From an archaeon (GTDB lineage: Archaea; Thermoproteota; Nitrososphaeria; Nitrososphaerales; CADDZS01): a DNA stretch of 37,233 nucleotides. The notes beneath the pieces are model-generated. The model ran no database searches. It was not told where the DNA came from and saw nothing but the letters and a program-made list of their open reading frames with translations. Positions 6,845 to 34,626 of this stretch are shown here, in pieces. Positions within the stretch are counted from its first letter, which is position 1; each line of letters opens with the position of its first letter. The stretch spans positions 1-37,233 of the forward strand of contig CADDZS010000006.1 in assembly GCA_902812485.1 (NCBI GenBank). Direction: 5' to 3'. Made by a program: the position numbers and the translations under genes.

Positions 6845-9202
6845 TCAGAACTTTGCGTTATAGTTTATCTTGTAAATCAAGACTGCAGCGTAAAGTCCTG
6901 TTGAGGAAGGTCCTGGGAGACTGCTGGACTCGAAAACAAGCTGGAAGGGAGCGCTCGAATTGCCTGCGGGATACTTCATTTGATAATTGTAAAGTTCTGT
7001 ATAGCCGGCGTCGATTCCACATATTCCGTTTGTGCAGGTTGCCGCGAAGCCCTGTTGTGTGGATGAAGTAGATGGACTGATGAATGTTCCGCCACTTATC
7101 TCTGTAAAGGGCATTAGCTGTCCAAGAGTAGTGTTTGCCCAGAAGTAGGGAGTAGGAGTAAAGTCGTCAGACTCCATGAGCGCATGAGGACCGTTCGTCT
7201 CTTCTATGCAACCACATGTCGTGTTTCCAATCCGCATGAACCATTGTTTCTTGGACTCGTCCCCTCCCGCGGGGTTGTTACCGACCGTAAGCATGTAATA
7301 GACCTGACCGCTTCCGCTTTGTGGCACGAAACGCTCTCCAGCGAGAAATATGAGTATGTAAGTTGGTTTGTGAAGCTGCTCGAGTATCTGCATTGAAGTC
7401 TGCGGACTTGACACGAGCATTCTCCCTATTAGGGCAATTTGAGTTTCATTCATAGTCGCGTTGTCTGCAAGAGAGGTTCTATTCCCCATCACAGCAATCC
7501 AGTATCCATAGTCCCACCATGAGACAAATGTAGAATTTGACGGAGTCTGTCTGATCCATTGCAGTGCTTGAAGCCAATCCTGACTAGTTGTCTGAAAAGC
7601 GGTGCCTCCGTTTGCTATGCTCACAGGAACATTAGCACTCTGGAACCATCCTGAGTCTTGCAGCTGATATGCGGAGGAAGAGGAGCTGAAAACAGCTGGG
7701 AAGAACATTGGCAGGCAGATAAGAATTATCATTAGAGCAGAAAACGCAACTTTGATTTCGCTCCTTGCCTCATATATTCTGGTTTTCTTTCTGGAAATTG
7801 CAGCAACCGTCGGCCTTAGAAGCGACTCAGACAACTCCACGAGACCGACCGCGGCAAGTATCCCCAACGCAAGAGTAGAGTAGACCATCAGTCTTGAGAA
7901 AGATGAAGCTATATAGATTCCGGTAATGCCCAGAATTAGGGCAAACAGGGCATCAATGTTCTTTCGCCTGAAAGCTATGTATGCGCCGAAACCTCCAAGC
8001 AGAATAAGAATCGCGTAATCTTGGAAGAATTGGCTGCCTGTCGGGACAGCCTGCTCAGCAACTGACTGAACCAAAGGATTCGTCTGTCTGAAAGTCGCGT
8101 CAATGACGGTCAGATACCTCCCAGAGACTGAACCGAGGAGACCAAATCCCATCGCCAGGAGACCGACGAAGACAAGAGCAAGCAGTATCTTGACAATGTT
8201 CCTAAAATAGAGGCTTGGGTTCCCGTAATTTCTAACAAGATAAGCTAAGACACAGAAAAGCCAAGAGACGAGAAGTCCAACTCCTATGTAATTCGTCACG
8301 ACTCCTGGCCCAGGCCTAGGCGTCGCAGCCGCTATGAGGAGTGTCAACCCAGCTATGATAGAACCACCGTAGACAGTTCTCTTGATATCTATGCTCTTGA
8401 CAAACGGGACAACCAAAAAGATGAAAGCAAATACTAGATAATACTCGTCGCCTCCTCCCCATGCAATTACTGAGAGACCGAAGAGTAATCCCGTTACGAT
8501 CGCTCTTGTGATAACTCCCTTCATGGTATTCTTTGCATCATACATTGTCAGAAAGAAGTAGGAACCAGTAATTGAAAGGAGAAGAGAGTACGGTTCGGAT
8601 TTGAACCATCCAAGATTACCTCTTTCAAGTATCGGGGGAGATACCGCGAATATGAGTGCAGCAAAGATTCCACCTGCGCTGTTGTTTGTAATCTTCTTTG
8701 CAAGGAAGTAGAGCGAAATCGTCGTAAGAGAACCGAAAAGCACAGGGAGAAAGACAAGAAAATCATAGTAAGTTATCGGTACCCGGAGAACCTGATTCAC
8801 AAACAAGTAGAGCAAAGCGCCAGTCAGCTGGAGTCCGACTTGGCTGGTTGCAGCCACGTTACGCCCGTAAGGCCACCAGGTCTGTATATCATGCCAATAA
8901 AAGTAGCCCTGCTGACTGTGGCAGGCCGTGAGCGCAGATGCTGGGCAGTTGGGTGGATTGTTAAAGAGTGCATAGTAGAGACCATGCTGCTCTGCGAGAG
9001 TGACCACATGTAATGAAGCATAATAGTCGTAGTAAGGATCGAATTCGTTTAGGTACCATCCATACTGCGCGGGAAAGATTCGCATCACTAGAGCAATGAC
9101 AAATATCATTGACATTGCAAGGAAGATGGCAGCACTTCGCCTTGTCATAGTGGGGCGATAGAAAACGTTTCTAAGCCCGGCGAATCGCTCACGAAGCGTC
9201 AT
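6845..9202 (-). CDS. aglB: Oligosaccharyltransferase catalytic subunit AglB/STT3
   Basis: A 785-residue polytopic enzyme that transfers a lipid-linked glycan to Asn in N-x-S/T sequons of exported proteins. The N-terminal cytoplasmic tail and first helix lead into an extracytoplasmic acidic motif around D55 (NEFDPYYDY), with a second acidic loop near DIQTWWPYG. About a dozen hydrophobic helices follow. An SVAE sequence at 380-383, in a soluble loop, matches the SVSE/TIxE motif that contacts the acceptor in this family. The soluble C-terminal domain begins near residue 500 and carries the signature W562-W563-D564-Y565-G566. The length is usual for archaeal AglB. It stands alone here, without nearby glycosyltransferases. 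Likely clients include exported proteins such as the transporter's binding protein. The start is ATG with a short upstream gap. Confidence 0.96.
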   Translation of the reverse strand: MTLRERFAGLRNVFYRPTMTRRSAAIFLAMSMIFVIALVMRIFPAQYGWYLNEFDPYYDYYASLHVVTLAEQHGLYYALFNNPPNCPASALTACHSQQGYFYWHDIQTWWPYGRNVAATSQVGLQLTGALLYLFVNQVLRVPITYYDFLVFLPVLFGSLTTISLYFLAKKITNNSAGGIFAALIFAVSPPILERGNLGWFKSEPYSLLLSITGSYFFLTMYDAKNTMKGVITRAIVTGLLFGLSVIAWGGGDEYYLVFAFIFLVVPFVKSIDIKRTVYGGSIIAGLTLLIAAATPRPGPGVVTNYIGVGLLVSWLFCVLAYLVRNYGNPSLYFRNIVKILLALVFVGLLAMGFGLLGSVSGRYLTVIDATFRQTNPLVQSVAEQAVPTGSQFFQDYAILILLGGFGAYIAFRRKNIDALFALILGITGIYIASSFSRLMVYSTLALGILAAVGLVELSESLLRPTVAAISRKKTRIYEARSEIKVAFSALMIILICLPMFFPAVFSSSSSAYQLQDSGWFQSANVPVSIANGGTAFQTTSQDWLQALQWIRQTPSNSTFVSWWDYGYWIAVMGNRTSLADNATMNETQIALIGRMLVSSPQTSMQILEQLHKPTYILIFLAGERFVPQSGSGQVYYMLTVGNNPAGGDESKKQWFMRIGNTTCGCIEETNGPHALMESDDFTPTPYFWANTTLGQLMPFTEISGGTFISPSTSSTQQGFAATCTNGICGIDAGYTELYNYQMKYPAGNSSAPFQLVFESSSLPGPSSTGLYAAVLIYKINYNAKF

Positions 9203-9258
9203 GCTAAGAAAATACCTCTAGCCCTCAAGAGTGTATTAATCTTTCCCAAAGTCAGAAC

Positions 9259-9693
9259 TCAAGCCTCCTCCTCAGAGGCTTTGAGCTGATTCACGTATTC
9301 TGAATACTGATTTCTGCTAAGGAGAGATTTCAATTCATTATCAAGATTCGAAGCCTTTACTTCAACCATCCAGCCAGATTCGTACGGGGATTCACTAATC
9401 AATTCTGGCTTGAGCGTGAGCTCCTGATTTGTTTTCAATATGGAGCCGGACACCGGCATGTACACATCTGCGACTGTTTTGACCGACTCGACTTGACCCA
9501 AGACTTCCTTTTGCGAGAGTATCTGTCCTTCCTGTGGAAGAGTCACATACACTATATCGTGAAGCATTTTCGCGGCATAATCTGTGATTCCCACAAGGAC
9601 AACATCACTTTCGCCTGTCTTTCTTCTGACCCACTCGTGATCTTTCGTATAGTAGAACCCTTCAGGAATGGAATACTCTTCCCTTTCTGTCAT
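9259..9693 (-). CDS. gcvH: Glycine cleavage system H protein
   Basis: A 144-residue lipoyl carrier protein that shuttles the aminomethyl group between the P, T and L proteins. The lipoylated lysine is K72, in the motif GQVESVKTVADVY, preceded by the usual hydrophobic sandwich (ITDYAAKMLHDIVYVTLP). The N-terminal YTKDHEWV is also characteristic, and the downstream part ends in a short acidic helix. The gene is 111 bases after gcvT on the same strand. A TATA-like element at 9731-9740 precedes it, suggesting it can be transcribed separately from gcvT. No P-protein gene is in this window. Lipoylation enzymes would also be needed and are not seen here. Confidence 0.96.
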   Translation of the reverse strand: MTEREEYSIPEGFYYTKDHEWVRRKTGESDVVLVGITDYAAKMLHDIVYVTLPQEGQILSQKEVLGQVESVKTVADVYMPVSGSILKTNQELTLKPELISESPYESGWMVEVKASNLDNELKSLLSRNQYSEYVNQLKASEEEA

Positions 9694-9730
9694 TTTTTCG
9701 AATCAGCTCTCTTCTTCTTCTACTGGTTCT

Positions 9731-22210: not shown

Positions 22211-23980
22211 TTGTGCGGTATCATTGGCTACATTGGCGAGCGAAACGCGTCCCCGATACTTTTCGAGGCACTGAGAAGAATGGAATATCGCGGGTACGAC
22301 AGTGCAGGGATCGCCACCTTCGACGACAACTTCATCATTAAGAAAGGTATTGGCAAAATCTCGGATCTTGACAAGGAGCTCAATTTCAGAGAGATGCAAG
22401 GAACAGCTGGAATGGGGCACACGCGTTGGGCGACCCACGGAGGCGTGACAAAGGAGAACGCCCATCCACATTGGTCCTGCCGTGGAGAAGTAGTGATAGT
22501 CCACAATGGAATAATAGAAAACTACTCCGGTCTTAGGGAATTCCTATCATCCCGAGGTCACAAATTCACAAGTAGCACCGACTCTGAAGTCATTGCCCAT
22601 CTTTTGGAAGAAGCAATGAAGAATCATCAAGATCTCAAATCAGCGGCCCTCAGTGTTGTAGCCTCGCTCAAAGGCAGCTACGCGTTTCTAGCAATGACAA
22701 GATCCAAGCCGGACACAATAATTGGTGCAAGGAAGGATGTTCCACTCATTGTTGGAATCGGGAGAGGAGAAAATTTTCTTTCGAGTGATGTATTTGGTTT
22801 CATCGATAGGACTAATCAGGCTATTTTCATGGACAATAAGGAGATTGCTCTTGTAACAAAAGATCAAGTGGAATTCTTCGATTTCACTGGCAAATCCATT
22901 TCGAAGAAGCCGGCTACCGTTGCCTGGGAGGTAAGCGACTTCTCAAAGAAGGAATTCTTGCATTTCACATTGAAGGAGATCCACGAGCAGCCTCTAGCAA
23001 TCCGCCAAACACTTTCTCAAGAAGTTGAGGCTGTGCGGGAATTCGCCTCACTCATCTTAAAAGCAAAGAACTTGTTCATAACAGGCTGCGGAACTAGTTT
23101 TCATGCTGCACTTCTCATGAAGTATTTACTTGCAAGAAAGGCAAAGATTCGTTCGGAAGTCTTCCTCTCAAGTGAGATAGAACACCAGAAATATCTAATG
23201 GATGGTGACTCTGTTCTGCTTGCAATTTCGCAGAGCGGTGAAACAGCAGATGTTCTCTCTGCAGTTTCAGAGGCGAAGAGTAGAGGGGTCAAAGTCATAT
23301 CCATTGCAAACGTGATGGGATGCTCACTAGCTAGAGAGAGCTTCAAAACACTTTACACTCGCTGCGGCCCAGAGATTGGTGTTGCCGCGACAAAGTCATT
23401 TACTTCTCAAGTTGCTCTTCTGTACTTGATCGCTTCTGAAGCTTGCTCGGATCTTGCGATGAGAAAGTTTCTCATCGAATCACCTGACTACGTCGAACAA
23501 GCACTTGAGTTTGAAGCTCGTGTTCAAGAAATAGCCTACAAGTACATGAATGCAAATGACTTTTACTTTGTGGGCAGGGGGGATCACTATCCCATCGCTT
23601 TGGAAGGAGCCCTGAAACTCAAAGAGCTGAGCTATGTTCATGCTGAAGGAATGGCAGCCGGTGAGTTCAAACACGGAACCCTCGCTCTAATCGAGAAGGG
23701 AACGCCAGTCGTGTTAATGAATCCTCCAGATGAAACCTACGTTCAGACTCTCAACAATGCGATGGAGCTTAAGGCAAGAGGAGCAAGCGTCATCGGCATC
23801 TCTACTCGGCCAAATGCATGTTATGATGATTTCTTGCAGATTCCAGAGCTACCAACAGGGATTCTATATCCAATCGTAGAAAGCGTTCCTCTGCAGATGC
23901 TTGCATATTTTAGCTCGATAGGGCGAAAGCTCGATCCGGATTATCCCAGAAACCTCGCAAAGTCAGTCACGGTGATCTAG
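22211..23980 (+). CDS. glmS: Glutamine-fructose-6-phosphate aminotransferase
   Basis: A 589-residue enzyme making glucosamine-6-phosphate from fructose-6-phosphate and glutamine. A TTG start places Cys at position 2 (after Met, CGIIGYIGER), the N-terminal nucleophile of the glutaminase domain. Other N-terminal marks are RRMEYRGYDSAG, TRWATHGG and HNGIIENY. The two SIS domains follow, with C-G-T-S-F-H-A-A-L, S-Q-S-G-E-T-A-D and A-T-K-S-F-T-S-Q, and the C-terminal DPDYPRNLAKSVTV. It is complete and of usual length. It stands just upstream of a regulator and a sugar-modification cluster, to which it may supply the amino sugar. Confidence 0.97.
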   Translation: MCGIIGYIGERNASPILFEALRRMEYRGYDSAGIATFDDNFIIKKGIGKISDLDKELNFREMQGTAGMGHTRWATHGGVTKENAHPHWSCRGEVVIVHNGIIENYSGLREFLSSRGHKFTSSTDSEVIAHLLEEAMKNHQDLKSAALSVVASLKGSYAFLAMTRSKPDTIIGARKDVPLIVGIGRGENFLSSDVFGFIDRTNQAIFMDNKEIALVTKDQVEFFDFTGKSISKKPATVAWEVSDFSKKEFLHFTLKEIHEQPLAIRQTLSQEVEAVREFASLILKAKNLFITGCGTSFHAALLMKYLLARKAKIRSEVFLSSEIEHQKYLMDGDSVLLAISQSGETADVLSAVSEAKSRGVKVISIANVMGCSLARESFKTLYTRCGPEIGVAATKSFTSQVALLYLIASEACSDLAMRKFLIESPDYVEQALEFEARVQEIAYKYMNANDFYFVGRGDHYPIALEGALKLKELSYVHAEGMAAGEFKHGTLALIEKGTPVVLMNPPDETYVQTLNNAMELKARGASVIGISTRPNACYDDFLQIPELPTGILYPIVESVPLQMLAYFSSIGRKLDPDYPRNLAKSVTVI

Positions 23981-24012
23981 AGCAGATCATTAGAATTTCG
24001 AGTCTAACCTTC

Positions 24013-24059
24013 CTATATAGACCGCTGGTACCAATAATTACCAACATCTAGAACCAATA
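24013..24059 (+). promoter_or_regulatory. Promoter and repeat-containing operator candidate before the HTH gene
   Basis: CTATATAG at 24013-24020 is a box-A-like element. It is followed by three copies of ACCAA(T/C)A at 24030-24036, 24040-24046 and 24053-24059. These overlap the expected start site near 24043, a layout that would suit repression, possibly by the regulator encoded just downstream. Confidence 0.4.
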
Positions 24060-24149
24060 GGGAAAAAAGGAGTAGACGCCTTGAAAACGATACAAAAACA
24101 GAACTGAGCAACGCAATCGAATCGGCAAGAAATTGGGTGATAGAGTTCG

Positions 24150-24482
24150 TTGAGCAGGCGAATAAGACAGCACAGAAGTCGTTTGAAGATTATCAATGAC
24201 ATACTTTCAGTGGCAAGGCACGGGGCCCGAAAGACGCACATCATGTATAGGGCAAATTTAAGTTACGACCAACTCAACGAGTACCTTAATTTTCTCCTTG
24301 ACAATGGGCTAATCGAAAAGGAAGCCGATGTCGAGTATGAAGGTGCCATAATCTACAAGGTATCGAGCAAAGGCAGGCAGTTCTTGGAAAGATATTCTCA
24401 ACTGCAGGAGATTTTAGCTCACCCACAAACGGGGCAGCGAACAGGAGCGAACTACTTTGATCTTCCGATAATAGGCGAGTAG
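24150..24482 (+). CDS. Winged-helix DNA-binding protein (HTH_45 type)
   Basis: A 110-residue archaeal transcription regulator. The N-terminus is basic (RRIRQHRSRLKIINDILSVARHGARKTHIMYRANLSYDQLNEYLNFLL), followed by DNGLIEK and a wing ending with KVSSKGRQFLERY. This order and the M-Y-R-A-N-L-S-Y-D-Q-L motif are characteristic of small winged-helix proteins that are very numerous in Nitrososphaeria. The start is a TTG at 24150. The targets are unknown. The three ACCAA(T/C)A repeats upstream may be its own operator, and its place between glmS and the deacetylase gene makes these genes possible targets. Confidence 0.82.
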   Translation: MSRRIRQHRSRLKIINDILSVARHGARKTHIMYRANLSYDQLNEYLNFLLDNGLIEKEADVEYEGAIIYKVSSKGRQFLERYSQLQEILAHPQTGQRTGANYFDLPIIGE

Positions 24483-24926
24483 GCAACAAGAGAGCGAGAG
24501 CGGCGGGAAGTTTGTGTAATTTGTTAAAAATGAAGAAAGCAAAATCGCACTAGGAAGAAAAGAAGAAGAGCTTCCCCGGGCTGTGTCTTAAAATTCATGG
24601 ATTACTGATCCCCGTTTCCTCCCGCCACTTCCTTTGCCAAAGAGGAGTGTTTTGATCGGCTCTTGACAAGATTGCTCTTTTTTTGTTAGAATGATAAGTG
24701 AAGGGGTGAGAGCTTTACCCCGTTATTGTTATTCCTTCTCTTCTTCTTCTCCTCCCTACTTCTATTGCCTTCATCAGAGCAGTTTCATACAATTGCCATA
24801 GAAACCAAACACTCGCGTAAACCCTGACCTTTCTGGTGCGTCTGGAAAAAAAGTTCACACCGCTTAAGTAAAGTCGAATTGCAAAAATTGCAATAGTATT
24901 TTTCGAAGAGCGGTTAGAAAATCCAC
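24483..24926. other. Gene-free region before the deacetylase gene
   Basis: I see no supported gene in these 444 bases. There is a T-run after GATTGC near 24670 that could act as a terminator, and a weak TATA-like TTAAGTAA near 24864 that might serve the deacetylase gene. The 106-residue minus-strand frame at 24715-25035 overlaps the start of that gene and has a basic, low-complexity composition. Confidence 0.35.
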
Positions 24927-25622
24927 TTGAAAATAATGGCAATAGGAGCCCATCCAGACGACGTTGAGATCGGATGCGGTGGATCACTGCTTGCTTCTTC
25001 TGCCCTCGGCCATGAAATTTACATTTATGTCGCAACTCGCGGAGAAAAGAGTGGCAATCCCGTCATCAGGGAGGACGAGACAAGAAAGACAGCCGAATTG
25101 ATCGGCGCGCAGAAGCTGCGCATTGCTGACTTCAGAGACACTCTTTTGAAAAGGGATGGAGAGCTTATCGATAGCATCGAATCATTTGTCAAGGAGGTCG
25201 AGCCTCATATTGTATTCACACACACAGCAAATGATCAGCATCACGACCACCAAGCTGTAGCGCTTTCAGCTGTTGAAGCTTGCAGATTCGTTCCAAATCT
25301 TTTTTGCTATGAAAGTCCGAGTGCGAAGAATTTTCAACCGCAAGCATTCGTGGATATTTCATCTGTAATAAGCAAGAAGCTCAAATTACTGGATATATTC
25401 TGGTCTCAAAGAGGAAAGCAGTATCTCAGGAAGAACGCGATCGTCGGACTAGCCGAATACAGAGCATTTCAAACTCGTGTTGAGCAGATAAAATATGCTG
25501 AGGCCTTTGAAGTGAGTAAGGTCTGCATGTCAGAGGCCCTGTCTCTATTCAGCGTTCCGGTGTTTGCAAGAGAGCTTGAATTGTCGAAATCACCAATTTC
25601 CGGTGAACGCGTCGAGCAATGA
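24927..25622 (+). CDS. PIG-L/LmbE-family N-deacetylase (BshB-like)
   Basis: A 231-residue zinc deacetylase of the PIG-L family. The metal-binding motif A-H-P-D-D at 8-12 gives ligands H9 and D12 with catalytic D11; the third ligand is H108, in the segment NDQHHDHQAVAL. DVEIGCGGSLL right after the first motif is close to BshB1-type enzymes, which remove acetyl from GlcNAc-malate in bacillithiol synthesis. The start is TTG at 24927 (KIMAIGAHPDD); an ATG at 24936 would leave the fold intact. It leads a same-strand group with an oxidoreductase, an aminotransferase and a BshC-like protein, which makes an aminosugar-thiol role plausible. The substrate cannot be read from the sequence. Confidence 0.88.
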   Translation: MKIMAIGAHPDDVEIGCGGSLLASSALGHEIYIYVATRGEKSGNPVIREDETRKTAELIGAQKLRIADFRDTLLKRDGELIDSIESFVKEVEPHIVFTHTANDQHHDHQAVALSAVEACRFVPNLFCYESPSAKNFQPQAFVDISSVISKKLKLLDIFWSQRGKQYLRKNAIVGLAEYRAFQTRVEQIKYAEAFEVSKVCMSEALSLFSVPVFARELELSKSPISGERVEQ

Positions 25623-25710
25623 GAGAATAAGCGGCGGTGTCCATCGTCTTTCTCTTGCAAGGAATTGAAGTGTCATCTCGGGACGCTTCCCTGAAGGTCG
25701 GGAGAAAGGG

Positions 25711-26697
25711 ATGACTGTGCAACAAACTAAATCCGTTAATGAAATTGGATTTCCAAAATTTGGGATTCAATTTCGAAATTTCCCCAAAATCACAGCCGAT
25801 TCTCTATTCGACAAAATTGCGGAGGTTTCGCATGAGGCAGAGAGGGCCGGATATGATTCTCTTTGGACGATAGATCATTTGATGTTATGCCCTCCAATAT
25901 CTTACGAGAGCCAACCAATCCCGGACGCGTGGACTGCGCTGGTCCAGATCGCAAATGAAACTACCTCTGTGGATATCGGGACTTTGGTGACATCTTCTTT
26001 GTTTCGAAGTGCAGAGTATCTAGCGAAGCTCTCTGAGGCGCTGTACTTGATCAGTTCAGGGAGATTACAAGTAGGCATTGGAGCTGGCTGGTTTGAGCAG
26101 GAATTCAGGGCTTATGGAATCCCGTTTCCTTCTCCGATGCAGAGGCTTGCCATGGTAGAAAATCAAGTGAAATACCTCAGAAAATACTTTCGAAGTTTAG
26201 GACAAGATCTTACAAAAGATGGAATGCCTTTGGCAAGTTCCCCGCCAATCTGGATAGGTGGCTCAGGGCCTCGTTTGACACTAAAGCTTGCGGCGAAAAT
26301 TGCTGATGCTTGCAACCTCTTTGGCAATCCGAAAACTGTGCAAGAGAGATTGGAACTGCTTGAACTTTATTGCAGGAAGTTTTCAAGAGATCCCAAGGAA
26401 ATAATCAAGTCGAAGCACAGTAACGTTGTGATCGGACGCTCCAAAGCCGAAGTAGAGAAGAAATTTGCGGAAATTGTTCCTGAAAGATCTAAGTGGAAGG
26501 AATTTTCTACCTCAAACATAGTCGGAACTGCAAGTGAGTGTGTCGAATCACTGAGAAAGTACATCTTGGTGGGCGTTGAGTACTTCACACTCAACTTCCC
26601 GGATCTCTTCGAAATTGACCCCCTCAAACTCTTCATGACCGACGTAGTCGGAGCCTTGAAAGAAATGGAAATTTCAGCCTCTGGGGAACAGATGTAA
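25711..26697 (+). CDS. Luciferase-like (LLM) F420- or flavin-dependent oxidoreductase
   Basis: A 328-residue TIM-barrel protein of the bacterial-luciferase-like family. The N-terminus FGIQFRNFPK is followed by AERAGYDSLWTIDHLM, then TSSLFRSAEYLAKLSEALYLISSGRLQVGIGAGWFEQEFRAYGIPFPS, all family hallmarks. IWIGGSGPRLTLKLAAKIADACNL is the phosphate-binding part. Members closely like this in archaea usually use F420, for which a CofE-like gene is present in the window, but FMN cannot be excluded. A GGGAGAAAGGG ribosome-binding site precedes the ATG. It is 88 bases after the deacetylase gene and probably co-transcribed with it. Confidence 0.9.
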   Translation: MTVQQTKSVNEIGFPKFGIQFRNFPKITADSLFDKIAEVSHEAERAGYDSLWTIDHLMLCPPISYESQPIPDAWTALVQIANETTSVDIGTLVTSSLFRSAEYLAKLSEALYLISSGRLQVGIGAGWFEQEFRAYGIPFPSPMQRLAMVENQVKYLRKYFRSLGQDLTKDGMPLASSPPIWIGGSGPRLTLKLAAKIADACNLFGNPKTVQERLELLELYCRKFSRDPKEIIKSKHSNVVIGRSKAEVEKKFAEIVPERSKWKEFSTSNIVGTASECVESLRKYILVGVEYFTLNFPDLFEIDPLKLFMTDVVGALKEMEISASGEQM

Positions 26698-26731
26698 ATT
26701 ATTGGATCAAAAGCGTCATCGAATCAACTCT

Positions 26732-26740
26732 CTATATATT
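26732..26740 (+). promoter_or_regulatory. TATA box of the DegT gene (leaderless start)
   Basis: CTATATATT centred about 27 bases before the ATG at 26763 implies that transcription begins at or next to the start codon. The aminotransferase and the BshC-like gene downstream can thus be expressed apart from the first two genes of the cluster. Confidence 0.55.
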
Positions 26741-26762
26741 TCTATGAGGGAAGAAAAAACTA

Positions 26763-27938
26763 ATGCAATTTCGCTCCTCCTCCTTTGGGCAAGAGGAAAA
26801 ATTCTTGATCAACATTCCTTCAATGTCTCCCTTTTTCACGGATGAGGATATTCAAGAGCTGCTCAGTGGCTTTGAACAGATTTTGAGGTCGGGAAAGCTC
26901 ACTCTTGGAAAGTACACAGCCGAATTTGAAGAAAAATTTGCAAAGTATGTGGGGGTGAAATACGCAGTTGCAACTAACAGCGGTACAAGTTCGCTCGAAG
27001 CTATCTACCGCTCTCTTGGAATCGAAGGAAAGGAAGTGATAACTCCGACAAACACACATATTGCCACTTCTAATGCAGTGATTTTTGCTGGCGGGATTCC
27101 AGTTCTCACCGACATCGATGAAGAGTCGCTTTGCATGAGCTTTGAGGATCTAAGGTCAAAAATCGGGAACAAGACAAAAGCTGTAGTTGTTGTTCATGTG
27201 GCGGGTCTGATTCATCCTCGATTCGATGATTTCCGGGAGCTATGCAACGAAAAGGAAATCTTCTTGATAGAAGATGCTGCACACGCACACGGCGCCTCTA
27301 AAAATGGAAAGAGAGCCGGCTCGCTTGGGAAAGCAGGAAGTTTCTCTTTCTATCCTGCCAAAGTAATTACAACCATCGAAGGCGGAATGATAACGACAGA
27401 CGACGAAGAACTAGCCAAAACCGCACGTGAGCTCAGAAATCACGGCAGTAATTCCAGCGGCTTGCAAGTTAGACTGGGAAATAATTGGCGAATGAGCGAA
27501 ATTCATTCTCTTATTGGCTTAGTCCAATTGAACAGGATAGACGAGATCATTTACCTGAAGAGAAGGATAGCCACGGAGTATGAAAAGTACCTTGCGGATG
27601 AAAAGGACATCACGCTTCTCAAAGTTCCTTCCGACACGACTCACAGTTACTACAAGTACCCTGTCATTCTGAATCGCAAGGGCATTCCCCGTGAGAAGGT
27701 TCAGTCAATCATGAAGAAAAAGTTCGGAATAGAAACAGGTACAATTTACTACCCGCCTTGCCACTTGCAACCCGTTTATAGAGAAATGTTTCCAAATCTG
27801 CATGGAAGTCTCCCTGTAGCTGAAGACGTTCTGAATCGCACGATTTCTCTGCCGATATTTGCTAGCATGACAGAAGAGCAAGCAGAATACGTTTCAAAAT
27901 CCCTAATGGAAGCTATCTCACTTTCAAAGTTGGATTAA
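26763..27938 (+). CDS. DegT/DnrJ/EryC1/StrS-family PLP-dependent aminotransferase
   Basis: A 391-residue sugar aminotransferase-like protein. Key parts are YAVATNSGTSSLEAIYRSLG (cofactor phosphate contact), PTNTHIATSNAVIFAGG, IEDAAHAHGA with the Asp that holds the pyridine nitrogen (D171), and SFSFYPAKVITTIEGGM with K200 as Schiff-base lysine. All catalytic elements are present. Such enzymes usually transfer an amino group from Glu or Gln to a nucleotide-linked keto-sugar, making a 3- or 4-amino sugar. The first 18 residues are an unusual extension, but the TATA spacing supports this ATG as a leaderless start. The next gene, a BshC homologue, is 63 bases downstream. Confidence 0.93.
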   Translation: MQFRSSSFGQEEKFLINIPSMSPFFTDEDIQELLSGFEQILRSGKLTLGKYTAEFEEKFAKYVGVKYAVATNSGTSSLEAIYRSLGIEGKEVITPTNTHIATSNAVIFAGGIPVLTDIDEESLCMSFEDLRSKIGNKTKAVVVVHVAGLIHPRFDDFRELCNEKEIFLIEDAAHAHGASKNGKRAGSLGKAGSFSFYPAKVITTIEGGMITTDDEELAKTARELRNHGSNSSGLQVRLGNNWRMSEIHSLIGLVQLNRIDEIIYLKRRIATEYEKYLADEKDITLLKVPSDTTHSYYKYPVILNRKGIPREKVQSIMKKKFGIETGTIYYPPCHLQPVYREMFPNLHGSLPVAEDVLNRTISLPIFASMTEEQAEYVSKSLMEAISLSKLD

Positions 27939-28001
27939 CTGCCGTCTTTTCCAGTATCAATCAAAGTAACTTCATGAGAGGGGGAACTCGCAACGACAAA
28001 T

Positions 28002-29696
28002 TTGCTTGAATTTGTTCATAGATCCCTGAAAGAGCGAGAAAGACAGCCAAGCTTCAAAACGAGCTTCTTGTTTGTTAGCACATCAGAAGTTGCCGAGGCT
28101 GTCTTGTCTTACTTTGACAAGGTGAGAGAAGCCCGTGATGAGGATTACGTTCAGGAAATGAGACATAAGATTTCAAATCTAGCAGAGAAATATTACAAAG
28201 GCCTCCAAGAAGAGCTTCCAGATCCTGTGACTTCTGAAATAGAGAGAAATCTTCGACTGCTCCGAAGCATTAGTAGCAAGAATCTCATGTTAATTGTGAC
28301 GGCACATCAACCCAATCTCTTTCCCTTCTCTGGAGTGATGAGAAAGATAGTTCTTGCAAATCATTTGTCAAAGCTCGTTGCCAAGTTAAAGAAGGCTCAG
28401 GGATCAAATGATTTTGAAGTTCTCTGTCTCTTCGCAGTTGCGGATCATGACTTTGTTCACAACAAATGGATTAGATCTGCCGAGCTTCCAGCGCCTCTGA
28501 GGCGAGACGGAGTCCTGAGACTCAATCTGCAGTTTCGTGAAAAGTCGGATTTGATGCTTCCCTCGAACAGGATCTCGAAACCTAGTAAGGAGCTTCTCGA
28601 AAAATGGAGATCCGAAATTTTTGAATGGATACAAGAAAATGGCTCGCTTGCAACGAAGTATCTGAGATCTATCGAGCCGAAGTCTAAAACCGATGTTTCG
28701 TCCCAAGCCCTCCAGAGTTTCAGGGACTTTTGGGAGCTCGTAGAAACTGCCCACAATTATTCAGCGAACTTGTCGGAATTTAGTTCCTTTCTGCTGTTTC
28801 TTGTCTCATCAAAGATTTGGAGAATTCCAATGCTGTTTATGAATCTCTCTAATTTTTTTCCGCTCTTGCGAAGAGAATACCTCTGGTTCTTGGAAAACTC
28901 AGAAGGATTTCGAAGTGCAATATTGGAAAGTGAGGAGCGACTGAAAGCCTGTGAGGTCGACAGCGGCTTGCCTAACGACCTTGCTGAACTCTCTCCTCTT
29001 TGGCTCAGATGCAAGTGCGGGAGTAAGTACAGGCTCTCCTTCTCCGAAAGAGATCTCTCAGGGAAATGCCTGCGCTGTCAATCTGAAATATTTCTTTCCC
29101 TGGAGGAAGCAAGAGAGTTGATTGAACATAGTCCTGAACTTTTCGAACCAAGATCGATATCTATGCCAATTTCTCTCTCGAGAGCAACACACATGTCATG
29201 CTACATCGGAGGAATCGGAAGCCTAGGATATCTCATACATGCACGAACTGCAAGTATTGCGATGAGAGTCTCATTCCCTCCAACACCTTTTTGGTTTGTT
29301 CCTGACAGATTTATTGGCGTTGAGCAACTTGCTGCGATGCATGAAATAAAGAGAATCGCGCAGACCTACAAGCTTGTATCAGCTGAGACAGATCTTCGAC
29401 ATCTTGAATCAAATGCAGAGTCACTTGGTTCACAGCTAAGAGCGAAAATCGAAACTGGTGAGGAGAAAAAGACTCCAGTCACGCAAAGAGATCAACAGTT
29501 ACTTCAAAGAATTTCCAAGATAAGTCATGCCAATCCCTGCATGATTGGCTACGCAGTGGATATCGGCCTTGATCGGCTCGTAGCGCAGTGGAACAAGTTC
29601 CTCGAAAGAGTTGGGAATCTGCATTCAGAAGTCTCGCTAGAGTCGTTTTGCTCATTGGCTCTTGGGACCCCTGTCCATTCACAATTAGCCCTTTAA
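28002..29696 (+). CDS. BshC-like protein (putative cysteine-sugar ligase) with zinc-binding insertion
   Basis: A 564-residue homologue of the bacillithiol synthase BshC, which joins cysteine to a glucosaminyl acceptor. Landmarks align in order. T-A-H-Q-P-N-L-F at 100-107 corresponds to the GQQ-x-GLF motif; A-D-H-D at 147-150 in FAVADHDFVHNKW corresponds to GEDHD; and HSPELFEPRSISMPISLSR followed by YIGGIGSLGYLIHA corresponds to HPERFSxNVVTRPL and FIAGPGEINYW in bacterial BshC. Where BshC has its Tyr/Asp-rich loop, this protein has C337, C339, C356 and C359, likely a zinc site. A coiled-coil-like C-terminal region follows, as in BshC. The start is TTG, with GAGAGGGGG about 20 bases upstream. 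Function in this lineage is unproven. Confidence 0.82.
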   Translation: MLEFVHRSLKERERQPSFKTSFLFVSTSEVAEAVLSYFDKVREARDEDYVQEMRHKISNLAEKYYKGLQEELPDPVTSEIERNLRLLRSISSKNLMLIVTAHQPNLFPFSGVMRKIVLANHLSKLVAKLKKAQGSNDFEVLCLFAVADHDFVHNKWIRSAELPAPLRRDGVLRLNLQFREKSDLMLPSNRISKPSKELLEKWRSEIFEWIQENGSLATKYLRSIEPKSKTDVSSQALQSFRDFWELVETAHNYSANLSEFSSFLLFLVSSKIWRIPMLFMNLSNFFPLLRREYLWFLENSEGFRSAILESEERLKACEVDSGLPNDLAELSPLWLRCKCGSKYRLSFSERDLSGKCLRCQSEIFLSLEEARELIEHSPELFEPRSISMPISLSRATHMSCYIGGIGSLGYLIHARTASIAMRVSFPPTPFWFVPDRFIGVEQLAAMHEIKRIAQTYKLVSAETDLRHLESNAESLGSQLRAKIETGEEKKTPVTQRDQQLLQRISKISHANPCMIGYAVDIGLDRLVAQWNKFLERVGNLHSEVSLESFCSLALGTPVHSQLAL

Positions 29697-29758: not shown

Positions 29759-30352
29759 TTACCAATCTCTTCTGGAAGAATCGTTCCTCTGTTCGGGAAG
29801 CTCCTCAGTGTTTGATTCGCTTGTCTTTTCTATAGTCATTAGCACCGTACTTTCAGTAACTGTGAACCTTGGAGTAATCCCCACATTTGCTACGAACATT
29901 GCCTCTAAAACTGATTGCAAAGCCACTGACCATTTGCTGCCATAATTGTGGCGCAACGTAACCACATATTCAGAATCTGTCGAAGAGTTGTGATACGTCG
30001 CCCATTTCATGTAGTCGCAGAAAATATTTTCAACAAAGCGGATACATCCTTTAAGATCATTCTTTTGGCCTGTAAAGAGGATCAAATCCTTGGGAAACCT
30101 TTTTCCCGTTTCTAAAGCAAGTGCTCGCACAGAGTCCTCGTTGAGGTGAGAGAGACCTCGAATAAAGTCGTGAACAGAAAACATGATGTATCCGAAGTCT
30201 TGCAGATATCGATCAAAATTTACCCATTTTCTAAGAATTTGGTTTGTTAGGTTGTTGACACTTGTTCCTCTCCGAGCGCTCTCTGTGTCAAGTGCTTCAA
30301 GGATATCTGCATCGAGTCGGAATGATTTTGTTTGGGTAGGTGTTTTGTCCAA
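29759..30352 (-). CDS. Ribbon-helix-helix regulator with C-terminal sensor-like domain
   Basis: A 197-residue protein. Residues 8-44 (TKSFRLDADILEALDTESARRGTSVNNLTNQILRKW) form a ribbon-helix-helix DNA-binding domain like CopG/Arc. The remaining 145 residues are alpha/beta; the segment VVTLRHNYGSKWSVALQSVLEAMF resembles the ligand-binding V4R or heme-NO-binding-like folds seen in sensors, though I cannot confirm that. The polar C-terminal tail is disordered-looking. Start TTG at 30352, preceded at about 26 bases by a TATA element, so it may be leaderless. Convergent with the BshC-like gene, divergent from the methyltransferase gene. Confidence 0.72.
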   Translation of the reverse strand: MDKTPTQTKSFRLDADILEALDTESARRGTSVNNLTNQILRKWVNFDRYLQDFGYIMFSVHDFIRGLSHLNEDSVRALALETGKRFPKDLILFTGQKNDLKGCIRFVENIFCDYMKWATYHNSSTDSEYVVTLRHNYGSKWSVALQSVLEAMFVANVGITPRFTVTESTVLMTIEKTSESNTEELPEQRNDSSRRDW

Positions 30353-33425: not shown

Positions 33426-34484
33426 CTATTCGTCGATCAAGTTAAGCTTTTTCTCGTAGCTCTTCTCATTTCTTGATTCGTATGACTCGCTCCTTGACAG
33501 CATGGTCCAGATTATTTTGAGCATTTTGCTCGCGGTTGCGACGATTGCTTTTTGGTCTCCTCTTCTATATTTGATTCGCTCATAGAATGATTTCAATCTC
33601 GGATCATGATTGACTGCAACTCTAGCTGATTCTACCATTATCCACCTGATCATTTTAGACCCTTGCTTTGTGATGCTTCCATAGTACTCCACACTTCCAG
33701 ACTGGTGCATCGATGGAGCCAGTCCAGCCCATGACACCAGCTTCTTGTAGTTTGGAAATCTCTTGATGTCTCCAATCTCTGATTTGAGTAATAGGGCAGT
33801 ATAGATGCTCACTCCGGTTAGGCTCAATAGTAATCTGACATCTTCGTCTTCTGAAGCTTTCAACAGTATTTCCTGATCAACAGTTTTGATTTGGTGCTGC
33901 AAGCTTTCGAGGTGTTCCAGGTAGTTGTCAAGCATCAGTCTATCGAGTGAAGATTGGAATTGAAGCGATTTGAGCCAATCAATACCCCTCTTACTGAAGA
34001 TATTATTCTCTAATTCTGTTTCAATGCCATTCTTGTCTATCAGAGAATGGATCTTGTTCTTCACCATCGTCCTTATCTTCACAATCGATAGTCTGTGCCT
34101 GATTAGTGCTCTGATTTCACGCAGGTTATAAGGCGGAACATAGCTTTCGGCGATGAGATCAGATCTCAACAGGTGAGCGAGTATTCTGGCATCAACTTCA
34201 TCGCTCTTGATTCTTGCCCAGGCGATAGCTTTTGTCTTCAATGGATTTGCCAGTATCACTGGAATATGCTTTGAATCAAGATGATTGTATAGATTTGTCC
34301 AGAAGCTTCCGGTAGATTCCATAACAACTCTGTCATCCATAGAGAGCTTTTTAGAAAACCATTCTATCCCCTCGTGGTTGTTTGAGAATGCGAATTCATC
34401 ATCAATTAGTCCGCTCTGGTTCATCATTGCAACATTGCATTTCTTCTTTCCAATGTCAACTCCAACGTAGTATCTCGTACTCAT
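33426..34484 (-). CDS. IS110-family transposase (DEDD type)
   Basis: A 352-residue transposase from the ATG at 34484. An upstream TTG-type frame to 34532 adds 16 residues that lack family character, and a GGAG lies shortly before 34484. The RuvC-like DEDD domain has D10 (YYVGVDIGKKK), E56 (VVMESTGS), D95 and D98 (IKSDEVDAR). The C-terminal Tnp domain has LTGVSIYTALLLKSEIGDI and the motif ITKQGSKMIRW, where S276 aligns with the catalytic serine of IS110 proteins. All four acidic residues and the serine are kept, so the enzyme may be active. It inserts and excises in concert with a bridge RNA in better-studied members. Confidence 0.94.
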   Translation of the reverse strand: MSTRYYVGVDIGKKKCNVAMMNQSGLIDDEFAFSNNHEGIEWFSKKLSMDDRVVMESTGSFWTNLYNHLDSKHIPVILANPLKTKAIAWARIKSDEVDARILAHLLRSDLIAESYVPPYNLREIRALIRHRLSIVKIRTMVKNKIHSLIDKNGIETELENNIFSKRGIDWLKSLQFQSSLDRLMLDNYLEHLESLQHQIKTVDQEILLKASEDEDVRLLLSLTGVSIYTALLLKSEIGDIKRFPNYKKLVSWAGLAPSMHQSGSVEYYGSITKQGSKMIRWIMVESARVAVNHDPRLKSFYERIKYRRGDQKAIVATASKMLKIIWTMLSRSESYESRNEKSYEKKLNLIDE

Positions 34485-34626
34485 TTTCTCCTTTTCACCT
34501 CCTAGCTGGCAGAAAAGGCTGCATTCACTCATTCGATCGCACGGATCAACTCTTTAGCAGCTCGAGGGACACTGTCCAGTCAGAACCACGGTCGCGAGGA
34601 CCATGTTAAGTCATGGACTTGCCAGC
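34485..34626 (-). ncRNA. Candidate IS110 bridge RNA region
   Basis: The 142 bases 5' of the transposase gene have no coding frame but several stable hairpins. On the minus strand CATGGTC and GACCGTG form seven pairs around a five-base loop (about 34587-34605), and GGAC/GTCC form a short hairpin (about 34569-34580). A CCATG...CATGG inverted repeat spans 34601-34616. In IS110 elements of the IS621 type the bridge RNA, which reads target and donor DNA, is encoded here. No guide loops have been matched to the flanks. Confidence 0.45.

Follow-up and report, generated by a model that had tools for sequence, protein, structure and literature searches.

A six-gene archaeal block around a PIG-L deacetylase and a BshC-like protein: a candidate amino-sugar biosynthesis module

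The window analysed here, a stretch of 37,233 nt from a Nitrososphaerales contig (CADDZS010000006.1), contains a block of six genes (22211-29696; Table 1), which we read, at roughly even odds (about 0.5), as a dedicated amino-sugar biosynthesis module. In this reading, a GlcNAc-type substrate would be de-N-acetylated and then ligated through an amide by the BshC-like protein, and the product would more likely be a glycoconjugate or surface glycan than cytosolic bacillithiol. Five of the genes had been listed in an earlier note on this DNA, and all five were recovered on the + strand at the positions it had given, while the motifs quoted there were found again by script.

Table 1. Genes and motifs of the block (window coordinates)
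Feature	Coordinates	Strand	Evidence
glmS (glutamine-fructose-6-phosphate aminotransferase), dedicated second copy	22211..23980	+	TIGR01135 690.8 bits, above cut-off
Winged-helix protein, Sso10a/HTH_45 family	24150..24482	+	HTH_45 77.3 bits; NF053610 above cut-off
PIG-L zinc de-N-acetylase, BshB1-like	24927..25622	+	PF02585 85.0 bits
LLM-class oxidoreductase	25711..26697	+	PF00296 Bac_luciferase 103.2 bits
DegT-family PLP sugar aminotransferase	26763..27938	+	PF01041 368.5 bits
BshC-like protein, class I aminoacyl-tRNA-synthetase-like fold, putative amide ligase	28002..29696	+	PF10079 22.1 bits (cut-off 27); predicted fold
HQPNLF motif, BshC-like residues 102-107	28305..28322	+	script motif search
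CxCGSK...CxxC zinc-ribbon-like insertion, BshC-like residues 337-359	29010..29078	+	

Gene context establishes the block as a unit. The same six genes occur in the same order in one relative (G005). Three others (G001, G002 and G004) lack the block as a whole, and their L10e gene directly adjoins the counterpart of the gene at 29759; in G007 the block is decayed, with a broken glmS running into the tail of the BshC gene. The block was thus gained or lost in one piece, and between them the genomes show this site intact, decayed and empty. The block glmS, which the earlier note had left out of its gene set, is missing along with the remaining genes at the empty sites and belongs to the same gain/loss unit as the other five; it is 45% identical to the other glmS copy of the same genome (G000:C90). 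Presence of the block is patchy within one family. A one-sequence search of the contig collection matched the G005 contig only, and the wider sampling described below comes from whole-genome searches; checks of the archaeon's own genome (94% complete) were run family by family.

Across wider distances it is the deacetylase and the BshC-like protein that stay together. A PIG-L gene lies within 2.5 kb of the BshC-like gene in 32 of 43 archaeal loci from three deep lineages, and in 14 of the 16 loci whose contig extends 2.5 kb or more to each side; this pairing, again a matter of gene context, includes three genomes from outside the order (G431, G495 and G502). The LLM and DegT genes accompany the pair together in this genome and one relative only, although a more distant DegT gene is found near the pair in G502, and both lie outside the conserved core. 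Co-conservation of the four enzyme families, which had been proposed as a check, is seen for the BshB-type and BshC-type pair across lineages, but not for LLM and DegT. The BshC and PIG-L trees seem to disagree, but we rejected this as evidence of transfer: neither tree is rooted, and joint descent of the pair fits both.

Family membership follows from sequence for most of the block, the HTH_45, PIG-L, Bac_luciferase and DegT matches all exceeding the Pfam gathering scores (for PIG-L, 85 bits against 28.2). The PIG-L protein is the sole member of its family in the genome and is 79% identical to its G005 counterpart. It carries the AHPDD and HHDH motifs (from residues 8 and 105, respectively), of which H9, D11, D12, H105 and H108 are invariant among 10 homologues. 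Its best-scoring NCBIfam model is BshB1 (93.9 bits), but the score falls below the BshB equivalog cut-offs (TIGR04001, 93.9 of 182.5 bits; TIGR04000, 42.9 of 195.25 bits), and its best PDB matches are bacillithiol-type and diacetylchitobiose deacetylases.

The BshC-like protein requires more evidence, and its identity as BshC from the window sequence alone was set aside as too weak in favour of orthologue, profile and fold tests. The window sequence scores 22.1 bits against PF10079 (E 1.2e-4; cut-off 27); the earlier note had named a BshC-like profile score below threshold as a refuting outcome, and for this one sequence that is the outcome. The assignment draws instead on the orthologues, the family and the fold. 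Orthologues pass, at 29.9-40.5 bits (40.5 and 38.7 among them), and PF10079 matches 27 of the 34 family members at E<=0.01; no other family competes, and PF08889 (WbqC) matches none of the 34. Against the equivalog model TIGR03998, the window protein scores 15.8 of 265.8 bits and orthologues 34.7 at most. An AF2 model (pLDDT 88.1, pTM 0.89) has the BshC fold with its C-terminal helical part, and its top Foldseek match is B. subtilis BshC (4wbd; E 3.8e-15, probability 1.00, TM 0.61/0.64), followed by a class I lysyl-tRNA synthetase (1irx; E 1e-7); a PDB profile search also matches BshC. Plasmid records gave no BshC-like match.

The script located HQPNLF at residue 102, ADHDF at 147 and YIGGIG at 401. 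In the alignment of 21 archaeal BshC-like proteins, H, Q, P, N and F of HQPNLF are invariant, K115 is strictly conserved, and D148 and D150 are near-invariant. Four cysteines (C337, C339, C356 and C359) are likewise invariant across the three lineages, and define a CxC…CxxC insertion common to the archaeal proteins, which from its sequence appears zinc-ribbon-like. The class I HIGH motif is absent from this alignment. Since, in addition, BshC activity was not shown in vitro even for the bacterial enzyme, nor the chemistry of the BshC step reconstituted, as of a 2015 review (PMC4360819), ligation by the BshC-like protein is an extrapolation.

The LLM oxidoreductase is probably F420-dependent: its best NCBIfam model is the F420 subfamily TIGR03560 (170 bits; cut-off 231), and its best solved-structure match is an F420-dependent reductase. 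For the DegT protein, the best solved-structure matches are scyllo-inositol transaminase and perosamine synthase, and K200 of a YPAK motif (residues 197-200, by script) is the presumed PLP lysine. Neither protein satisfies a substrate-specific NCBIfam model. Oxidoreductase and DegT pairs such as GnnA/GnnB and NtdC/NtdA put an amino group on a sugar by oxidation followed by transamination, and the LLM and DegT enzymes probably install a further amino group; the oxidoreductase here would be of the LLM/F420 type, whereas those of the known pairs are Gfo/Idh proteins. A gene for an F420 ligase (PF01996) also lies within the window.

The setting of the pair in relatives is that of surface-glycan loci, with PelF (142.4 bits; cut-off 100), PelG, GT2 and GT4 glycosyltransferases, NDP-sugar dehydrogenase, ATP-grasp ligases, SDR, PHP and Gfo/Idh proteins as neighbours. 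In one f8 arrangement, PelF-SDR-PelG is divergent from PIG-L-BshC. One f8 arrangement also has, two genes from PIG-L, a gene whose beginning resembles a CDP-alcohol phosphatidyltransferase, named by eye. Three genomes (G004, G006 and G008) are without BshC and instead have PIG-L near WbqC; each also has PelG, and a PelF locus that carries its own glmS. WbqC and the BshC-like family have a common HQPN-YxG-K start (hhalign 94.6%, E 7e-8, 67 columns) and both occur near PIG-L genes, but WbqC is only ~230 aa, lacks the remainder of the BshC-like protein, and its Pfam model does not recognize the latter. The block itself contains no glycosyltransferase. PelG is absent from this genome and from G005, so a Pel-type polymer is not what the block feeds here, and we rejected that assignment for this genome; Pel synthesis does need a deacetylase, but the block PIG-L is not of the PelA deacetylase family. 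An f8-type ATP-grasp partner in this genome was also rejected, the one candidate being a single weak match in a 1099-aa frame (E 1e-6).

From these observations we infer the reactions of the block, including the amide bond, its donor and acceptor, and the product. The second GlmS would supply glucosamine-6-phosphate, and PIG-L would take the acetyl group off an N-acetylglucosamine-type conjugate. The amine exposed in this way would then be joined through an amide by the BshC-like protein, most probably to an amino acid, perhaps cysteine. LLM may oxidize a hydroxyl with F420 and DegT transaminate the resulting ketone, which would probably place an amino group on the sugar or the acceptor. The product would more probably be a building block for a glycoconjugate or surface glycan than cytosolic bacillithiol.

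We think it rather unlikely that the product of the block is a genuine low-molecular-weight thiol, namely cysteinyl-glucosamine attached to malate or to a different acceptor; an unlinked and diverged glycosyltransferase would then do the BshA step, and LLM and DegT would alter the acceptor. Bacillithiol synthesis (BshA, BshB and BshC of Firmicutes and other bacteria) does resemble the block in combining a PIG-L deacetylase with a BshC-fold protein, presumably acting in sequence on a glucosamine derivative; the ranking of BshB1 for PIG-L, the dedicated glmS, the absence of the PelG exporter from the genome and of genes for a polymer or its export from the block, and eight GT4 matches in the genome all fit such a product. 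However, the earlier note's finding of no BshA-type enzyme in the window extends to the whole genome, where none exceeds the curated cut-off (best 137.3 of 273.7 bits), and the best match (G000:C50) lies away from the block among other sugar-metabolism genes. YpdA, the bacillithiol disulfide reductase, also falls short (TIGR04018, 70.9 of 339.9 bits), as do BshB and BshC. The block further differs in having its own glmS, LLM and DegT, in the cysteine insertion, and in the glycan-locus neighbours of its relatives, and a main redox buffer would not usually be so patchily distributed within one family. In a 2025 survey no archaeon had the complete pathway (PMC12719100). None of the papers searched links BshC with Thaumarchaeota. 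True bacillithiol is not supported, given the profile scores and the glycan loci of relatives, while the more general part of the pathway proposed in the note, amino-sugar deacetylation followed by (amino)acylation of the amine, agrees with the conserved pair. Mycothiol synthesis follows a similar logic, the MshB deacetylase preceding MshC, a class I CysRS-like ligase acting on the amine, but the block PIG-L reaches only 12.5 bits against MshB and the BshC-like protein has no CysRS family match.

A doubtful alternative keeps the pair in glycan synthesis and makes the BshC-like protein a nucleotidyl- or acyl-transferase of the same fold, or gives it a non-catalytic role beside the deacetylase. 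The fold is common to a superfamily of nucleotide-binding enzymes and the HIGH motif is missing; moreover, the deacetylase is accompanied by ATP-grasp ligases (in one arrangement) or WbqC (in other genomes), which could carry out any ligation. Against this, the nearest relative with a solved structure is BshC, which genetic evidence marks as adding cysteine, and the strict HQPN-F and K115 together with the near-invariant D148 and D150 argue for an active enzyme. Very unlikely, in our view, is a lipid reading, in which PIG-L would deacetylate an N-acetylglucosaminyl archaetidylinositol, like the enzymes of GPI-anchor or glycolipid synthesis, and the other genes would modify the lipid head group: the family is named for GlcNAc-PI de-N-acetylase and the phosphatidyltransferase-like gene noted above would suit this, but the latter is confined to a single arrangement and is missing from the surroundings of this block, and the PDB matches of PIG-L point to other deacetylases.

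A bolder and tentative possibility, which we judge on the unlikely side, is a novel cysteinyl- or aminoacyl-amino-sugar made by an archaeal zinc-ribbon branch of BshC, an archaeal counterpart of bacillithiol and mycothiol used in, or recruited from, surface-glycan synthesis. The deep archaeal BshC branch, its pairing with PIG-L, its absence from the three sister genomes where WbqC is near PIG-L, and the glycan loci suggest that PIG-L together with an enzyme of the BshC type may serve generally to form amides on amino sugars, thiol synthesis being one application. For this idea the archaeal branch provides defined and testable partners (ATP-grasp, WbqC and PelF/PelG) and the zinc-ribbon feature.

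The winged-helix protein, 86% identical to its G005 counterpart, is likely a local regulator or DNA-binding protein; HTH genes of the same type are also found near PIG-L/BshC in the f8 genomes, G431 and G495.

The six-gene block of the window (glmS, winged-helix regulator, PIG-L, LLM, DegT and BshC-like genes) is, glmS included, one unit of gain and loss. This follows from its state in five members of the same family. In G005 the order glmS-HTH-PIG-L-LLM-DegT-BshC is kept, with the same flanking genes on both sides. The whole block is absent from G001, G002 and G004, where the L10e gene directly adjoins the orthologue of the 29759 gene, and in G007 a broken glmS (codons 1-232 matched, in two frames) is followed directly by the tail of BshC (codons 489-548 matched). 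The family genomes compared are all drafts, and the G007 remnant is possibly an assembly error, while an error repeated at each of three separate empty sites is unlikely. The block's glmS is a second copy; the other glmS in the window's own genome (G000, at C90) is 45% identical and of the type common to most family members. PIG-L is single-copy in G000.

Coordinates of the features discussed, in the window and in loci of relatives
Feature	Sequence	Position	Strand	Remarks
STT3/AglB oligosaccharyltransferase	window	6845-9202	-	PF02516
Six-gene block	window	22211-29696	+	
Conserved protein, 3' neighbour of the block (29759 gene)	window	29759-30352	-	no Pfam match; start resembles ribbon-helix-helix (by reading); family genomes carry a single syntenic copy and several distant paralogues
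IS110/IS116-type transposase	window	33426-34532	-	between conserved methyltransferase gene (32754) and KsgA gene (34627); missing at corresponding site in L010, L156, L157 and L158; likely an insertion in G000
PIG-L plus WbqC	G134, L109	3626-6942		adjoining gene resembles nonulosonate synthase (by eye)
BshC-like gene in two open frames	G212, L083	about 8103-9718		intact PIG-L adjoining; gene decay or misassembly

The earlier note had described five of these genes, without glmS, as a candidate bacillithiol-like pathway. Strand and coordinates of all five ORFs, and the quoted motifs, were verified, and the PIG-L, LLM, DegT and winged-helix assignments far exceed curated cut-offs; the observation is thereby confirmed and here extended, and its interpretation is partly supported. 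From the window sequence alone the BshC assignment is insecure (22.1 bits against PF10079, cut-off 27, E 1.2e-4; 15.8 bits against TIGR03998, cut-off 265.8; no phmmer match in the PDB), but orthologues, profiles and fold support it as a BshC-like fold. Orthologues pass PF10079 (G005, 40.5 bits; G046, 38.7; G495, 33.7). At E<=0.01 this model matches 27 of 34 members, and no other family competes with it. The best PDB match of the alignment profile is B. subtilis BshC, 4wbd (E 3e-4; wider alignment, E 2e-3), which is also the top Foldseek match (E 3.8e-15, TM 0.61/0.64) of an AlphaFold2 model (pLDDT 88.1, pTM 0.89); class I LysRS 1irx is second (E 1e-7), followed by many other class I synthetases, non-significant. 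Since 4wbd is best in both searches, the modelled fold of the window protein is BshC-like. Across 21 sequences H102, Q103, P104, N105, F107 and K115 are invariant, as are C337, C339, C356 and C359 of a zinc-ribbon-like insertion (CxCGSK...CxxC), cysteines that lie outside all 4wbd-aligned stretches of the profile comparison.

The block may operate like BshB-BshC. However, among eight GT4 matches in the G000 genome none exceeds the BshA cut-off; PIG-L scores 93.9 bits against the BshB model (cut-off 182.5), and YpdA has no match over cut-off in the genome. According to a 2020 review, homologues of BshA and BshC occur in archaea, chiefly in Asgard, but bacillithiol had not been detected there (PMC7278568), and a 2025 survey finds the complete pathway in no archaeon (PMC12719100). 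By the time of a 2015 review BshC ligation had not yet been demonstrated in vitro, and the open BshC active site was read as leaving room for a missing partner (PMC4360819). The block should therefore not be classed as bacillithiol synthesis. The PIG-L plus BshC-type pair is of a known kind, here in a variant that stands out by its distribution among archaea, its zinc-ribbon-like insertion, its glycan setting and the clean presence or absence of the block.

In the mechanism that we propose, GlmS would increase the supply of GlcN-6-P, an unlinked glycosyltransferase would make a GlcNAc conjugate, PIG-L would free its amine, and the BshC-like protein would acylate that amine, the group added most likely being an amino acid. 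By analogy, LLM and DegT may follow the logic of oxidoreductase-aminotransferase pairs that convert a hydroxyl to an amine. The window has an F420-ligase gene, a sign that the cofactor F420 is available, and the STT3/AglB gene makes protein N-glycosylation a possible outlet for G000 amino sugars.

Of 300 genomes of the order, whole-genome searches give BshC-like matches in 42, nearly all in family f8; the short G007 remnant and one cross-hit to WbqC, in G134, are counted among the 42. Elsewhere in the phylum, three genomes of other families (G431, G495, G502) also have a match. Judging from genome sizes and gene content, f8 is probably Nitrososphaeraceae and the order probably Nitrososphaerales. 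A PIG-L gene lies within 2.5 kb at 32 of 43 loci, and at 14 of the 16 where the contig extends 2.5 kb or more in both directions. Outside G000's family the pair has three arrangements. In (a) (G029, G059, G214, G163, G210, G074, G212), PIG-L-BshC-HTH, usually with a second HTH, stands beside a divergent SNAP-like gene-PelF-SDR-PelG; most of these loci also have an ATP-grasp gene. Arrangement (b), in more than 20 f8 genomes, many truncated by contig ends, is PHP-BshC-ATP-grasp with a divergent second ATP-grasp gene, convergent PIG-L and, where the contig is long enough, an NDP-sugar dehydrogenase-like gene. In (c) (G431, G495, G502), PIG-L-BshC has GT2, GT4, Gfo/Idh and sugar-dehydrogenase genes around it, or a DegT gene nearby. 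The pair is therefore either older than the divergence of these lineages or has travelled as a unit, and the genes around it are glycan genes.

In three family members without BshC (G004, G006 and G008) there is a PIG-L that shares 70-73% identity with the arrangement (a) enzyme, and WbqC lies 1.7-2.5 kb from it; each of the three also has a PelF locus, next to which stands a glmS belonging to that locus. Among the nine family genomes PelG is present in exactly these three (in G004, PelF and PelG are on different contigs) and was not found in G000 or G005. WbqC and the BshC-like family have in common a 67-column N-terminal stretch, HQPN...YxG...K (hhalign probability 94.6%, E 7e-8). Together with the WbqC genes near PIG-L in these three genomes and in G134, this points to a possible swap between the two, and WbqC and the BshC-like protein may have related roles after deacetylation. 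The genes of arrangement (b), highly conserved in L064-L078 and other f8 loci, seem to form a pathway for a glycan or glycopeptide that has not been described before.
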